Source: Solwaraspora sp. WMMD406 (GTDB lineage Bacteria > Actinomycetota > Actinomycetes > Mycobacteriales > Micromonosporaceae). Taken from it: 64,000 nucleotides of DNA. Where the stretch lies: assembly GCF_029626025.1 (NCBI RefSeq), contig NZ_JARUBF010000001.1, forward strand, positions 6,108,001 to 6,172,000, read 5' to 3'. Below, in pieces: positions 4,579-9,709 of the stretch (position 1 is its first letter; each line of letters starts with the position of its first letter). Position numbers and translations under genes: made by a program. Below the pieces are notes generated by a model. It saw only the letters and a list, made by a program, of their open reading frames with translations, had not been told where the DNA came from and searched no databases.

Positions 4579-5907
4579 GTGACCGATATCCCGCGCTGGG
4601 CCGTGTCCAGGACCGCCAAGCTCGCCGCGTTGCCACTCGGCTTCGCCGGCCGTACCGTCCTGGGCCTGGGTAAGCGGGTCACCGGACTCGCTTCCGACGT
4701 CATCTCCACCGAGATCCAGGAACGCACCGCCGAGCAGCTGTTCAGCGTGCTCGGCCAGCTCAAGGGCGGTGCGATGAAGGCCGGGCAGGCGCTGTCGGTG
4801 TTCGAGGCGGCCCTGCCGGACGAGCTGGCCGCCCCGTACCGGCAGGCGTTGACCAAGCTGCAGGAGGCGGCACCGCCGCTGCCCGCCGGCAGCGTGCACA
4901 AGGTGCTCGCCGACCAGCTCGGGGAGCGGTGGCGGGACACGTTCGTCGAGTTCGACGACCATCCGGCCGCCGCCGCCAGCATCGGACAGGTGCACAAGGC
5001 GGTCTGGCGGGACGAGTCCGGCGCGGGCCGCGACGTCGCCGTCAAGGTGCAGTATCCCGGTGCCGGCGAGGCGCTGCTGGCCGATCTCAAGCAACTGGCC
5101 CGGCTCAGCACGATGTTCCGGGCGATCCAGCCCGGCCTGGACATCAAGCCGCTCCTCGCCGAGCTGCGGGACCGGCTCGCCGAGGAGCTCGACTACGAAC
5201 TGGAGGCGCGGTCACAGCGGGCCTTCGCCACGGCGTACGCAGACGACGAGCAGATCCGGGTGCCGGCGGTGCTGGCCTCGGCGCCCCGGGTGCTGGTCAC
5301 CGAATGGCTCGACGGCGTCCCCCTTTCCAAGATCATCAACGATGGTACGGCTGACGACCGGAACCGGGCCGGCGAGCTGATGGCCGTCCTGCACTTCTCC
5401 GCGCCGGCCCGCGCCGGGCTGCTGCACGCCGACCCGCATCCGGGCAACTTCCGGCTGCTCCCCGACGGCCGCCTCGGGGTGGTCGACTTCGGGGCGGTGG
5501 CCCGGCTGCCCGACGGGCACCCCGAGCCGATCGGCCGGCTGGTCCGGCTGGCCTTGGCGGGCGACGCCGACGCGGTCGTCACCGGGCTCCGTGACGAGGG
5601 CTTCATCAAGCCGGACGATCCGATCGACGCGCCGGCGGTGCTCGACTTCCTGCTGCCGATGCTGGAGCCGTTGGCGGTGGAGGAGTTCCAGTTCAGCCGC
5701 AAGTGGCTGCGCGACGAGGCGACCCGGCTGGCCAGCCCGAAATCCCCGGCCTACCAGCTGAGCCGCCAGCTCAACCTGCCGCCGTCGTACCTGCTGATCC
5801 ATCGGGTCACCCTCGGCTCGATCGGGGTACTGAGCCAGCTGGAGGCCCGGGCCCCGTACCGGCGGATCGTGCAACGCTGGCTGCCCGGGTTCGTCCCGGC
5901 CGGCTGA
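4579..5907 (+). CDS. ABC1/UbiB-family atypical kinase
   Basis: A 442-residue protein starting at GTG. It has the family-specific KxGQ motif (MKAGQALS near residue 72), the alanine-rich nucleotide loop (AAASIGQVHKA), the lysine-containing strand VAVKVQYPG, and the kinase catalytic and metal motifs HADPHPGNF and VVDFG. These are all hallmarks of ABC1 (AarF/UbiB/COQ8) proteins. No transmembrane segment is evident. It is the probable counterpart of mycobacterial Rv3197, next to whiB7 there too, where the neighbourhood is linked to intrinsic antibiotic resistance. Substrates are unknown; in other bacteria the family supports quinone biosynthesis. Confidence 0.9.
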   Translation: MTDIPRWAVSRTAKLAALPLGFAGRTVLGLGKRVTGLASDVISTEIQERTAEQLFSVLGQLKGGAMKAGQALSVFEAALPDELAAPYRQALTKLQEAAPPLPAGSVHKVLADQLGERWRDTFVEFDDHPAAAASIGQVHKAVWRDESGAGRDVAVKVQYPGAGEALLADLKQLARLSTMFRAIQPGLDIKPLLAELRDRLAEELDYELEARSQRAFATAYADDEQIRVPAVLASAPRVLVTEWLDGVPLSKIINDGTADDRNRAGELMAVLHFSAPARAGLLHADPHPGNFRLLPDGRLGVVDFGAVARLPDGHPEPIGRLVRLALAGDADAVVTGLRDEGFIKPDDPIDAPAVLDFLLPMLEPLAVEEFQFSRKWLRDEATRLASPKSPAYQLSRQLNLPPSYLLIHRVTLGSIGVLSQLEARAPYRRIVQRWLPGFVPAG

Positions 5908-5976
5908 CCGCCGGGTCGATCCGGCCGGGGCTGGCCGCGACCTCGTCCCGTACCACCGCCGTTGCACAGCGACGGC

Positions 5977-6031
5977 GACAGCGGCGCGGGCCGCAGGGGC
6001 GATGTCTGCCCCTGCGGCCCGCGCCGCTGTC
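5977..6031. terminator. Bidirectional terminator between convergent genes
   Basis: A perfect 24-bp inverted repeat (5977-6000 with 6008-6031) around a seven-base loop, between the ABC1-kinase gene and the leftward small gene after whiB7. It would serve both transcripts. Confidence 0.9.
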
Positions 6032-6104
6032 AGTAGCTGGATGGTCGAAGGGATGGATGGTCAGGTGAACGCTGACGGTCCGGCGGGTGGCCGGGATCCG
6101 TCGG

Positions 6105-6335
6105 TCAGCGCCCGCCCAGCTCACGGGCCCAGCGCTGCCGGGCCTGCATCGCGATGGTACGGGCGGATCGGGTTGCCTCAGTACGCGTGTCGCCGGCCTG
6201 AGGCGATTGCATTCGGACCCGGGACAACGCTTCGTGCAGTAAGTTCATGGCGATTTCTCCGGTAGTGACGGTCTGTGTGGTGATGGTGGTGGTCAGCGCC
6301 GGTACCTGACCGGCGATCGTCGTGGTCGTACGCAT
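6105..6335 (-). CDS. Small protein downstream of whiB7
   Basis: A 76-residue ORF whose ATG lies one base past the whiB7 stop (TGACATG), suggesting translational coupling. An internal ATG at 6248 has its own ribosome site (GGAGA) and would give a 47-residue protein starting MNLLHEALSRVRMQ. This resembles small arginine-rich actinobacterial proteins that begin MNLLHEAL. The N-terminal part of the longer form is threonine-rich and may not be translated. The function is unknown; position suggests co-expression with WhiB7. Confidence 0.5.
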   Translation of the reverse strand: MRTTTTIAGQVPALTTTITTQTVTTGEIAMNLLHEALSRVRMQSPQAGDTRTEATRSARTIAMQARQRWARELGGR

Positions 6336-6336
6336 G

Positions 6337-6738
6337 TCAGGCCGCCAACCGGACGGCCCGGCGGGTGCCGGCGACGCCGTCGGCCGCCAACCGCGCCTCG
6401 ACCTCGCCCTGCAGGGCGGCGTCGCGCGCGAGGTCCTCCTTACGGGGGCGGCCACGCGGCCGCTTGCGCGGCACCACCGCGCCCCGCTCGAAGATCTCGC
6501 CGCCCCAGACGCCCCAGGGCTCGGCCCGCTCGACCGCGCCGGCCAGGCACTCCACCCGCAGTGGACAGTCCACGCAGAGCGACTTGGCCAGCTCCAACTC
6601 CGTCGGGGAGTCGGAGAACCACAGGTCAGGGTCGAACTTCCGACACGGTAGGTCTGCCACAACCTCCGACTGGCCCGTCGCGGCCGGCCGGCAACCCGGC
6701 TTCCAGACGCGCTCGAGTGTGGCCAACGCCAGACTCAT
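6337..6738 (-). CDS. whiB7: WhiB7-type (WblC) iron-sulfur transcription factor
   Basis: A 133-residue WhiB protein. The four cluster-binding cysteines appear as LPCRKFDP, then the triad in SLCVDCPLRVECLAG. They are followed by the WhiB turn GVWGGE and, near the C-terminus, an AT-hook (RGRPRK), which is the diagnostic feature of WhiB7/WblC. In mycobacteria and Streptomyces this factor partners the principal sigma factor to induce intrinsic antibiotic-resistance genes when ribosomes are inhibited. A ribosome site (AGAGGTGA) precedes the ATG. The neighbours (ABC1 kinase, uvrD2) match the mycobacterial whiB7 locus. Its leader contains an attenuator-like terminator. Confidence 0.92.
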   Translation of the reverse strand: MSLALATLERVWKPGCRPAATGQSEVVADLPCRKFDPDLWFSDSPTELELAKSLCVDCPLRVECLAGAVERAEPWGVWGGEIFERGAVVPRKRPRGRPRKEDLARDAALQGEVEARLAADGVAGTRRAVRLAA

Positions 6739-6805
6739 AGCCCGGTCACCTCTTTCTTTCGCTTCGATCTTGTGGATCGCTTCCGACTTGTTCGTACCTG
6801 TGCGG

Positions 6806-6851
6806 GCGCAAAAACTAAGGCCGCGGATCCCGGTTGCGGGTTCCGCGGCCT
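6806..6851 (-). promoter_or_regulatory. Attenuator (intrinsic terminator) in the whiB7 leader
   Basis: On the minus strand a stem of 14 pairs with a single T/T mismatch (6818-6851, loop GTTG) is followed by TTAGTTTTTGC. This is a textbook Rho-independent terminator located 68 bases upstream of the whiB7 start codon. Two self-complementary CCTCGAGG octamers (6849-6856 and 6890-6897) could pair with each other and invade the base of the terminator stem, giving an antiterminator. Attenuation of whiB7/wblC by translating ribosomes is known in other actinobacteria; its operation here is inferred. Confidence 0.75.
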
Positions 6852-6876
6852 CGAGGTGAGCCGGTTGGTCTGTTGG

Positions 6877-7329
6877 TCAGACCGGCCTTCCTCGAGGTGG
6901 AACACCGCGGGCAGCATCCAGGAACGGCTTCTTGACCGTCGGGATCATCGTGCGGAGGCTGCCCTCAGAGCTGTTGCCGGCGCTGGCCGCCACCACGGCC
7001 ATGCCACGCCGCCGCTGCTGCCATGCCGAGGTCACCGGAGCCTGCCCAGCCGGCGCCGACGACGGGACAGACACGTCTGCCCGCAGTGCGGCGAAGGTGG
7101 GCCGGAGCTGGTGAGTCGGCGCGACCTGGACCTGGTGCGCCCCGGTCGACCCGGCCTGGACCCGAACCTGGTGGGTCCCGGTGGTCGGCTCGGCTGGAAC
7201 CTGGTGCGCCTCGGTCGGCTGGCCGGCGGACACGACGGTGGTCGGCGCGACGGTGACCCGATAGCCACCGACCGTCGGAGCGCAGGCAGCACGCAGCGTC
7301 GACAGCTCTGGAATCGTGTAGATCTCCAT
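6877..7329 (-). CDS. Leader ORF upstream of whiB7 (candidate)
   Basis: A 150-codon ORF starting at the ATG at 7329 with a perfect ribosome site (AGGAGGTG). It is rich in Val, Ala, Thr, Pro and Gln with repeated HQV motifs, and I recognise no domain. Its stop codon lies inside a small hairpin (6867-6883) and 26 bases before the attenuator stem, and its last codons cover the first CCTCGAGG arm. That placement suggests it may be the translated sensor of whiB7 attenuation, although known whiB7 leader ORFs are much shorter. An internal ATG giving a 23-residue peptide (MIPTVKKPF...) is an alternative but lacks a clear ribosome site. Confidence 0.45.
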   Translation of the reverse strand: MEIYTIPELSTLRAACAPTVGGYRVTVAPTTVVSAGQPTEAHQVPAEPTTGTHQVRVQAGSTGAHQVQVAPTHQLRPTFAALRADVSVPSSAPAGQAPVTSAWQQRRRGMAVVAASAGNSSEGSLRTMIPTVKKPFLDAARGVPPRGRPV

Positions 7330-7432
7330 CGTCGACACCTCCTGCCTGAACTCGTCGTGACTCGTCACTAACAACCGTTTCACCCCAGTCGAGCAGCGAG
7401 AACGCCCACTGCCCGCGAGGTGTGACCTGAGG

Positions 7433-9709
7433 CTAAGCCCCGTCGCCGGACGCTGGCAAACCATTTTCCGGGTCGGATTCCGAACTTTTTTTCCAGTCAA
7501 GATCATCTACTGCCGTGCCGTCCACCAACGCGCACACGTCCCGGCCGTAAAGGCCCAGCTTGCGCGGGCCGATCCCGGCGATCGCGAGCAGCTCGGCGTC
7601 GGTCCGTGGCCGCCGTTCGGCGATCGCCACCAGAGTGGCGTCGGTGAAGACCACGTACGCCGGCACCCGCTGATCCCCGGCCAGCCGACCCCGCCAGGTC
7701 CGAAGCCGGTCGAACAGCTCCTCGTCCAGATCCGACGGGCAGGTGGCGCACCGGCCGAGCTTGCGGTCGACCCCGGCGAGCAACGTCGTCCCGCAGACCC
7801 GACACGAGATCGGCTGTCCCCGGCGACGCTGCGCCGCACCACTCGCTGGATCGGTGCCCCCCCTGCCGGTGCCCCCCCTGCCGGTGCCACCGGCTCGTCC
7901 CGCCGCGCCGTCGGAACGGTCCAGCTGAGGCAGGAAACGGCAGGGACGACGGTTACGACCGCCCGGCGAACGAGCGGTGCCGTAGGACAACCAGAGCCAC
8001 TGCCGGGCCCGGGTCACCCCGACGTAGAGCAGCCGACGTTCCTCCTCCAGCTGCTCGGCGCTGCGCGCGTACGGCGTCGGCAACGTGCCGTCGGCGAGGC
8101 CGACCAGGAACACCGCGTCCCACTCCAGCCCCTTGGCCGAGTGCAGCGACGCCAGGGTCACCCCGGACACCGTCGGGACGTGTTGCGCCGCCGCCCGACG
8201 CTGCAACTCGGCGCAGAAATCCGCCAACGACACCGCCCGCTCGCTGACCGCTGCCTCGCCGACCGGCACCAGCAGCGGCTCGGCACCGAACTCCTCGGCC
8301 AGTTGCACCAGCGCGGCCAGCGCCTCCCAACGTTCCCGGACCGCGCCACCGGCCGGTGGCTGGCCGGGAGCCCAACCCACCGCGCCCAGCCCGGCCACCA
8401 CCGCCTCGACCAGCGGGGTCTCCCCCGGCGTCGAACGGACTGCGGCCCGCAACGCCACCATCGCCTGACGAATCTCGGCCCGTTCGAAGAACCGCTCCGC
8501 CCCCTGCACCACGTACGGCACCTCGGCTTCGGCCAACGCCTTCTCGTACGCCTCGGACTGCGCGTTGGTGCGGAACAGCACCGCGATCTCCTGGGCGGGC
8601 GTGCCGGCGGCGATCAGCTCGGCGCACCGGGCCGCGACCGCCGTCGCCTCGGCCGGCTCGTCGGTGAAGATCCGGACCTCCGGCTCCGGACCAGCCGGAC
8701 GTTGTCCGACCAGTTCCAGACGCAACCGCGCCTCGGCCCCCCGGGCCTGCCGGATCACCGCGTTGGCCAAGCCGACCACCTGCGGAGTCGAACGGTAGTC
8801 GCGGACCAGCCGGACCACCACCGAGTCGCGGTGCCGGTGCGGAAAATCGACCAGGTAGGCCGAGGTGGCCCCGGTGAACGAATAGATCGTCTGGCTGGCG
8901 TCGCCGACCACGGTCAGGTCGTCGCGGCCACCCAGCCAGGCGTCGAGCAGGCGCTGCTGCAGCGGGTTGACGTCCTGGTACTCGTCGACCACGAAGTGCC
9001 GGTACTGGGCGCGGACCTGCTCGGCGACGTCGGGGTGGTCTTCGATGCCCCAGATCGCCGCCCGGAGCACGTCCTCGAAATCGATCACCCCGTTGGCCCG
9101 CTTGACCTGCTCGTACGCGGCGAACACCTCGGCGACCCTGGCCGGCTCGTGCGGTGTCTCCCGCATCGCCTTCGCCGCCGCCACCGCGTACTCACCCGGC
9201 TCGACCAGCGACGACTTGGCCCACTCGATCTCGCCGGCGAGGTCGCGGGCGGCGGCCCGATCGGTCCGTACGCCGAGCCGACCGGCGGCAAGGGTGACCA
9301 GTCTGATCTTGCTGTCGAGCAGCTCGGGCATCTCCCGACCGCCGAGCAGTCGGGGCGCGAAGTAGCGGACCTGGCGCAACGCGGCGGCGTGGAACGTGCG
9401 GGCCTGGACCCCCGCCACGCCGAGTTCGCCGAGCCGGGCGCGCAACTGCGCGGCCGCCCGCGCGGTGAAGGTGACCGCCAGGACGTGCCGGGCGACGATC
9501 TGGCCCGACAGGACCCGGTAGGCGATCCGACTGGTGATCGCCCGGGTCTTCCCGGTACCGGCACCGGCCAGGACGCAGACCGGCACCGCGGCCGCGGTGA
9601 CCGCCGTACGCTGCTCCGGGTCGAGCCCAGCGAGCACCCGGGCGATCTCGGTACGCGCTGGGCCTGAGTCCTGGTCTGAGCCTGAGACTGAGCTGATGTC
9701 CGCCGCCAC
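7433..9709 (-). CDS. uvrD2: ATP-dependent DNA helicase UvrD2
   Basis: A 758-residue superfamily 1 helicase. Walker A is GAGTGKT near residue 51; motif II is VVDEYQDVNPLQQ; motif III is VVGDASQTIYSFTGA; motifs V/VI include LHSAKGLEWDAVFLVG and VGVTRARQ. After the motor comes the tetracysteine linker (CRVCGTT...CATCPSD) and a C-terminal HRDC domain (ELLAIAGIGPRKLGLYG), the layout that defines actinobacterial UvrD2. A 15-bp duplication gives a Gly/Thr/Arg repeat in the low-complexity stretch before the cysteine linker. In mycobacteria it is a 3'-to-5' helicase near whiB7 and mrx1, as here, and it is divergent from mrx1. Confidence 0.93.
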   Translation of the reverse strand: MAADISSVSGSDQDSGPARTEIARVLAGLDPEQRTAVTAAAVPVCVLAGAGTGKTRAITSRIAYRVLSGQIVARHVLAVTFTARAAAQLRARLGELGVAGVQARTFHAAALRQVRYFAPRLLGGREMPELLDSKIRLVTLAAGRLGVRTDRAAARDLAGEIEWAKSSLVEPGEYAVAAAKAMRETPHEPARVAEVFAAYEQVKRANGVIDFEDVLRAAIWGIEDHPDVAEQVRAQYRHFVVDEYQDVNPLQQRLLDAWLGGRDDLTVVGDASQTIYSFTGATSAYLVDFPHRHRDSVVVRLVRDYRSTPQVVGLANAVIRQARGAEARLRLELVGQRPAGPEPEVRIFTDEPAEATAVAARCAELIAAGTPAQEIAVLFRTNAQSEAYEKALAEAEVPYVVQGAERFFERAEIRQAMVALRAAVRSTPGETPLVEAVVAGLGAVGWAPGQPPAGGAVRERWEALAALVQLAEEFGAEPLLVPVGEAAVSERAVSLADFCAELQRRAAAQHVPTVSGVTLASLHSAKGLEWDAVFLVGLADGTLPTPYARSAEQLEEERRLLYVGVTRARQWLWLSYGTARSPGGRNRRPCRFLPQLDRSDGAAGRAGGTGRGGTGRGGTDPASGAAQRRRGQPISCRVCGTTLLAGVDRKLGRCATCPSDLDEELFDRLRTWRGRLAGDQRVPAYVVFTDATLVAIAERRPRTDAELLAIAGIGPRKLGLYGRDVCALVDGTAVDDLDWKKSSESDPENGLPASGDGA

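Follow-up and report, generated by a model that had tools for sequence, protein, structure and literature searches.

A probable ribosome-mediated transcription attenuator of whiB7 with a frame-conserved uORF and a Micromonosporaceae-type antiterminator

Intrinsic resistance to many ribosome-targeting drugs is under whiB7 control. Attenuation of whiB7/wblC through a uORF is described in the accessible portions of three papers (PMC10727445, PMC9618640 and PMC11550727). As far as the available text of the sources goes, the attenuator of Streptomyces and Mycobacterium (Lee, Lee and Roe 2022; Burian and Thompson 2018) has an autoregulated promoter, a uORF with a Shine-Dalgarno (SD) sequence, a Rho-independent terminator between the uORF and whiB7, and an antiterminator formed from overlapping uORF and terminator sequences; the locus analysed here is alike in all of these. 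In that system, ribosome-targeting drugs or a shortage of amino acids induce read-through. The present locus differs in its 150-codon uORF (49-51 codons in the four Mycobacterium leaders with a call) and in its Micromonosporaceae-type antiterminator, a CCTCGAGG octamer pair enclosing a stop-codon hairpin. A conserved whiB7 uORF and terminator are also reported for two mycobacteria in the part of PMC4128351 at hand, and no paper on a Micromonospora whiB7 leader was found among the literature matches listed. The attenuator system is thus already known and the present locus adds another example; it is possible that the range of uORF lengths or the weak peptide constraint described below has also been published, for example in Lee 2022, Poulton 2024 or Burian 2012.

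Three other systems are comparable, according to the accessible parts of their descriptions. The leaders of the ABCF genes tiaA and are5sc (PMC12421871) share a proposed ribosome-mediated terminator/antiterminator switch in the 5' leader, but their uORFs are very short (MLV and MVGDDDISG) and the drugs stall at the start codon. The toiL uORF of E. coli topAI (PMC12121999) resembles the whiB7 uORF in that a single uORF senses several classes of ribosome-targeting drugs; it differs in host and target, and stalls at specific codons. The same text states that stalling within the whiB7 uORF is untested. In the amino-acid attenuator of M. tuberculosis ilvB1 (PMC13236596), as is proposed here, the antiterminator is hidden by a ribosome that has arrived at the stop codon, so that the terminator forms, but its uORF is short and carries clustered regulatory codons (LVVI).

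The window is the whole 64-kb stretch of DNA that was analysed. The switch elements and whiB7 were all found on its minus strand, in the following layout.

9709-7433, minus strand: ORF of a UvrD-type helicase (Pfam UvrD-helicase and HRDC), its 3' end overlapping the whiB7 promoter
7468-7430, minus strand: promoter with the WhiB7 autoregulation site (GAAAAT 7468-7463, N3, TTGCCA 7459-7454, 18 nt, TAGCCT 7435-7430)
7343-7338, minus strand: SD sequence AGGAGG of the uORF, read from the sequence
7329-6877, minus strand: uORF of 150 codons (ATG 7329-7327, TGA 6879-6877)
6852-6810, minus strand: intrinsic terminator (stem-loop 6852-6817, U5 tract 6814-6810)
6738-6337, minus strand: whiB7 coding sequence, 133 aa

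The encoded protein contains WGVWGGE and an RGRP stretch, which we take to be WhiB7/WblC-type motifs. It matches Pfam Whib (PF02467) with an E value of 3.2e-13, and this model has five further matches in the genome, all of them poor (none better than E 1e-9); no match to NCBIfam was obtained with the WhiB7 protein. The gene is present in 246 of the 250 genomes of the family that were searched. When the genome was scanned for a second copy of the attenuator (150 scored among 12040 first-look candidates), none was found: the whiB7 leader scored 131 bits, its own reverse strand 28 bits, and the next candidate 18 bits (E 0.03).

Some observations concern the surroundings of the gene. WhiB7 of the window's genus is about 12 residues longer near the N terminus than that of Micromonospora (window 6700-6738, minus strand) and has an extra Cys (...PGCRPAATGQ). 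Just downstream of whiB7, at 6105-6248 on the minus strand, there is a possible 47-codon ORF (MNLLHEALSRVRMQ...) with GGAG upstream, which is part of a longer frame. A search of window positions 5000-9000 against Rfam returned nine matches, all to miRNA families and all under the gathering score. Such sub-threshold matches occur on both strands at 5966-6039, between whiB7 (ending at 6337) and the convergent ABC1-kinase gene (ending at 5907). A strong hairpin therefore probably forms there, and it may be a two-way terminator.

The promoter fits the WblC site of S. coelicolor, GAAAWY placed three nucleotides upstream of the -35 element (PMC7157823, in its available part), and it is located upstream of the uORF as in the known whiB7/wblC systems. 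Of 171 distinct leaders, 29 have the strict form of this promoter upstream of their uORF. A relaxed form, [AT]AAWY-N3-TTG-N19-22-TANNNT, chosen after the sequences had been inspected, was observed there in 156 of the 171 and in 0 mononucleotide shuffles. The distance from the end of the -10 box to the uORF start is 100 nt in the window (median 87 nt in the leaders). An earlier note on this DNA had named a transcription start downstream of 6851 as one finding that would speak against attenuation; the location of the promoter pattern 5' of the uORF counts against such a start. A simple pattern scan of 6300-7600 reported neither promoter nor terminator, presumably because it looks for promoters of the E. 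coli type and for unbroken stems whose loops do not exceed 8.

The U-tailed terminator ahead of whiB7, which the earlier note had pointed out, is indeed there. The 65-nt stretch holding its hairpin folds with -35.0 kcal/mol (z = -4.3), and the fold of the 108-nt switch region has z = -6.0 relative to shuffles. The stem is kept in 57 aligned leaders; one of its pairs shows two-sided changes in 6 rows, and another in 1 row. A Rho-independent terminator stands between uORF and whiB7 here as in the published attenuator. The ORF reported upstream of it also bore out the earlier description: it is well initiated, judging from its SD and ATG, and its stop lies 26 nt ahead of the GGCCGCGG of the terminator, the folded stem starting two bases earlier. 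With this SD, this ATG and a conserved frame, the uORF appears translatable. A homologous uORF was matched in all 6 other genomes of the genus (250 genomes searched).

The length of 150 codons had been considered unusual for whiB7 or wblC leaders, and the survey corrected this. We collected 208 actinobacterial whiB7 leaders (window and relatives) and called uORFs by a simple SD rule, with at least 40 codons and an end beside the terminator. uORFs were called in 180 leaders (172 distinct; 28 without a call), and they span 43-181 codons with a median of 88. This range rules out 150 codons as an exceptional length, and a long uORF is ordinary at whiB7; 6 of the 180, that of the window among them, have 150 codons or more. 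The 111 uORFs from Micromonosporaceae, some of which are present in more than one collection, range from 79 to 181 codons with a median of 92. In seven leaders of f19, a family of large genomes that is probably Streptomycetaceae, the uORF has 90-109 codons; in the four named Mycobacterium leaders with a call, it is just 49-51 codons long. The uORFs of the six congeners are 108-130 codons long and lack, in the alignment, an insertion that overlaps a degenerate repeat.

7233-7150, minus strand: 28-codon insertion, uORF codons 33-60
7115-7148, 7151-7184, 7184-7217 and, weaker, 7241-7274, minus strand: copies of the degenerate 34-nt repeat (spacings 36, 33 and 57)

From the last uORF codons through the terminator, the leader is highly conserved across the family. 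This region holds the elements of the putative antiterminator.

6910-6905, minus strand: CCGCGG, predicted by folding as the outer segment of the antiterminator 5' arm (uORF codons Ala-Arg-Gly)
6897-6890, minus strand: octamer 1, CCTCGAGG, within the last uORF codons
6887-6859, minus strand: hairpin within the octamer helix, its 5' arm holding the uORF stop codon (from the fold, and seen in the alignment; left out of the covariation count)
6856-6849, minus strand: octamer 2, CCTCGAGG, extending into the base of the terminator 5' arm
6848-6843, minus strand: second CCGCGG hexamer, from the sequence

This octamer pair, at a spacing of 28-45 nt, is found at a single place in the 64 kb and is absent from all 100 shuffles. 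For the covariation test, 57 leaders were picked from 115 segments for genus spread, octamer 1 was taken from alignment columns, and one misaligned composite (L155, 1 of 39) was dropped. In the 38 distinct composite rows, the octamer helix is paired in all 304 of 304 cells. Two-sided changes were found in 10 cells of the structure, counted per row irrespective of kinship, and 0 of 500 shuffles scored as high; when the whole structure was slid to other registers, 30-49% of the cells were paired. Two of the five measures stayed within the shuffles, the number of pairs with a two-sided change (2; 207/500) and further pair types (394/500), as few pairs vary. Among the 115 segments, 95 carry CCTCGAGG/CCTCGAGG, and the two octamers change together to CCTCGAAG/CTTCGAGG in four, CCTCGAGA/TCTCGAGG in three and CCTCGAAA/TTTCGAGG in one. 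All eight positions pair in 112 of the 115 if G-U is allowed, in a search that picks the best complement and so favours pairing; two rows of this set are not true octamer leaders (L096, a reverse strand, and L123). The compensatory changes in the alignment thus support pairing of the octamers.

The outer part of the antiterminator is less certain. Two candidate pairings were obtained, CCGCGG with CCGCGG in the predicted fold, and GCGG plus GUUCC with GGAAC plus CCGC in the best terminator-free fold. The hexamers are paired in 87.7% of cells. Their GCGG/CCGC core holds in 37 or more of the 38 rows, and one of the outer two pairs is unpaired in 11 rows and the other in 16; no two-sided change was found in the hexamer pairing among these 38 rows. 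By eye, the GTTCC linker is not retained in Actinoplanes-type and some other leaders, and we therefore do not call the GUUCC/GGAAC helix conserved. Also by eye, the final uORF codons of other lineages (L108-L130 and L189-L194) appear to carry a different sequence complementary to the terminator 5' arm; a Pseudonocardia example sets GTGTCCGC against GCGGAC.

According to the earlier note, the two octamers can pair and thereby disrupt the terminator. The pairing is upheld by the compensatory changes; disruption by the octamers alone is not, because the minimum-energy fold of the full-length leader contains the terminator together with six of the eight octamer pairs. In these models, disruption would also need the adjoining uORF bases paired with the terminator 5' arm. 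The covarying octamer helix thus indicates an antiterminator that draws on overlapping parts of the uORF and the terminator, the outer pairing that would break the terminator being predicted from folds.

We folded the leader with the 3' edge of a ribosome of assumed footprint size at 18 successive positions. When the terminator 3' arm was left out, 69-71% of the 5' arm was paired upstream with the edge at or upstream of 6911, and this fraction fell to 42% at 6905, 14% at 6900 and 7% at 6896; with the edge from 6888 to 6862 it was about 25%. The folds suggest that a ribosome at the last codons frees the 5' arm, and that one which stalls or lags short of about codon 135 leaves the antiterminator available. 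The yardstick leaders of Mycobacterium and f19 showed the same trend, weaker in some (19 of 20 leaders gave a result, L126 being the exception). As the edge was moved from 60 nt before the stop to the stop itself, the paired fraction dropped from 0.75 to 0.15 in L165, from 0.65 to 0.25 in L128, from 0.86 to 0.37 in L190 and from 0.98 to 0.63 in L189. With the complete leader, each of the 18 ribosome positions gave a minimum-energy fold that includes the terminator, at least 11 kcal/mol ahead of the best alternative in the window, and the terminator wins at equilibrium by at least 6 kcal/mol in the yardstick leaders. Equilibrium folding, which favours the terminator throughout, is thus unusable as proof of a switch, and antitermination would have to be kinetic.

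The architecture matches the published whiB7/wblC system, it is conserved in the family, and the octamer helix carries compensatory changes. We consider it highly probable that the locus is a ribosome-mediated transcription attenuator of whiB7, as the earlier note had proposed. Transcription would begin at the WhiB7-type promoter, which lies some 100 nt upstream of the uORF. When the uORF is translated at normal speed, the leading ribosome would reach the last codons (ARGVPPRG) and cover the 5' arm of the antiterminator; the terminator 5' arm would then be free, the terminator would form and whiB7 would be off. If the ribosome stalls or lags before about codon 135, the tail of the uORF could pair with octamer 2 and next with the terminator 5' arm, which would be captured through CCGCGG or GGAAC-CCGC ahead of the synthesis of the 3' arm. 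The antiterminated polymerase would read through, in a drug-dependent way, and WhiB7 would then activate its own promoter. The peptide would be mostly a translated spacer, so that the signal would be translation itself and not a specific arrest sequence. The mechanism looks like the known whiB7/wblC scheme with a lineage-specific antiterminator.

The last part of this proposal was examined through the variation in the uORF. Of 181 pairs drawn, 144 with at least 60% identity were kept (pairs share sequences). Gaps in multiples of three make up 302 of 317 in the uORF body, compared to 33 of 281 in the 150-nt 5' flank. In the family comparison that had been suggested for the leader and ORF, both the terminator stem, in the 57 leaders, and the uORF frame are thus kept. 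dN/dS was estimated from MAFFT alignments, which have a variable middle. For 47 distinct uORFs of 79-99 codons (mostly from Micromonospora, with a few from Phytohabitans, Plantactinospora, Salinispora and other related genera), dN was 0.327 and dS 0.335 in the body, a ratio of 0.98, whereas WhiB7 of the same genomes gave 0.18. In the window's genus, the ratios were 0.90 for the uORF body and 0.23 for WhiB7. Restricting the estimate to close pairs gave 0.72 (252 pairs) and 0.77 (2 pairs). The three codon positions of the body vary alike (0.24, 0.27 and 0.24), so that no frame on either strand looks strongly selected as protein.

When the uORFs were divided into blocks of 12 codons, pN/pS was 0.07 in the last block of the larger set and 0.80-1.24 in the other blocks. 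In the window's genus, it was 0.27 in the last block, 0.40 and 0.56 in earlier blocks, and 0.66-2.04 in the rest. The last 12 codons are the RNA elements of the antiterminator. The close-pair ratio of 0.72 and the 0.40 block in the window's genus indicate that some peptide or RNA constraint persists in the body. With the frame kept and the peptide body little constrained, the signal is most likely translation itself and not a specific arrest peptide. The earlier suggestion that the length hints at a different sensor peptide or mechanism accordingly lost its footing, as long uORFs are common.

A motif recurs in the middle of uORFs outside the family. The in-frame GG-ACC-GGT-NTG-TCC (QGTG[MVL]S), derived from these same sequences, matches 16 of 69 uORFs at 12 or more of 14 positions; in codon shuffles (n = 50) the mean was 0.28 and the largest count 2. 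Seven of the 16 come from one family, and the carriers include L167, L184, L189-L194, L215, L223, L227 and L228. In Micromonospora uORFs, a related GGGACCAGTGGCTTCACGGG lies some 30 codons ahead of the stop, and its synonymous sites are conserved. The recurring motif is perhaps a small hairpin or a pause site.

Several readings of the uORF have to be weighed. The first refines the proposed sensing of translation and is not opposed to it: the leading ribosome must keep pace with RNA polymerase along the uORF, and lag accumulates with length, so that a longer uORF responds to a smaller slowdown. That the frame is kept while the sequence drifts is what is expected if translation speed is measured along a track, and the length of the uORF varies through in-frame insertion. 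A kinematic estimate put the needed ratio of ribosome to polymerase speed at 0.66 for 50 codons, 0.79 for 84 and 0.88 for 150, which is arithmetic on an assumed tolerance of 98 nt and an assumed initial lag of 40 nt, and not evidence. However, pausing or coupling of the polymerase could reset the race; in the tlrB leader, according to the available text of PMC12288461, polymerase pausing allows time for translation of the leader peptide. The shortness of the four Mycobacterium uORFs also speaks against it. We regard this reading as possible, and hold it tentatively.

Alternatively, the uORF could be an attenuator responding to amino-acid starvation, with a bank of regulatory codons, chiefly for Ala. 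The accessible part of PMC10727445 cites a need for WhiB7 in mycobacteria starved of alanine, and Ala makes up 17.3% of 180 pooled uORF bodies from many organisms compared to 13.8% of 29 window genes from one organism. The uORF of the window itself, however, has 15.3% Ala, near that gene average, and Ser, Thr, Gln, Val and others are likewise enriched, which makes this reading unlikely.

A particular nascent peptide could instead stall drug-bound ribosomes at one site, the length of the uORF serving to carry that peptide. Consistent with this, AACAPTVGGY is kept near the N terminus of the uORF in the window's genus (pN 0.034, pS 0.052), the block with pN/pS 0.40 lies there before the last 24 codons, HQVQVQAEL and EGTSGFTG are conserved in the Micromonospora-type set, and the in-frame QGTG[MVL]S motif is found in 16 of 69 other uORFs. 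Several of the conserved stretches are also kept at synonymous sites and may thus reflect RNA or DNA constraint, and the peptide pattern of the survey matched 0 uORFs of the window's genus. The purifying selection that marks the arrest site of erm-type leaders was not seen in the body, where dN/dS is 0.90-0.98 (close pairs 0.72) against about 0.2 for WhiB7. We consider an arrest peptide improbable.

It is most improbable that the uORF is open merely by chance in GC-rich sequence, or that it encodes a genuine protein with no part in whiB7 control: its codon adaptation is low (2nd percentile among 227 overlapping segments of window genes, with 29 long ORFs of the window as the baseline) and it has no Pfam or NCBIfam match, but a chance or unrelated frame is countered by the strong SD, the conserved position, the near-exclusive gaps in multiples of three and the stop fused to the antiterminator, and the similar variation of all three codon positions speaks against strong conservation as protein, whichever of the six frames is considered.

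The conservation of the frame together with the weak constraint on the peptide favours the sensing of translation as such by the whiB7 attenuator. More speculatively, and with slightly less assurance than the pacing of ribosome and polymerase itself, the whiB7 uORF might be a sequence-independent speed comparator, in which selection acts on frame and length and lineages tune their drug sensitivity by the length of the track. If this were true, the 150-codon, insertion-lengthened uORF of this genome would be a sensitive setting.
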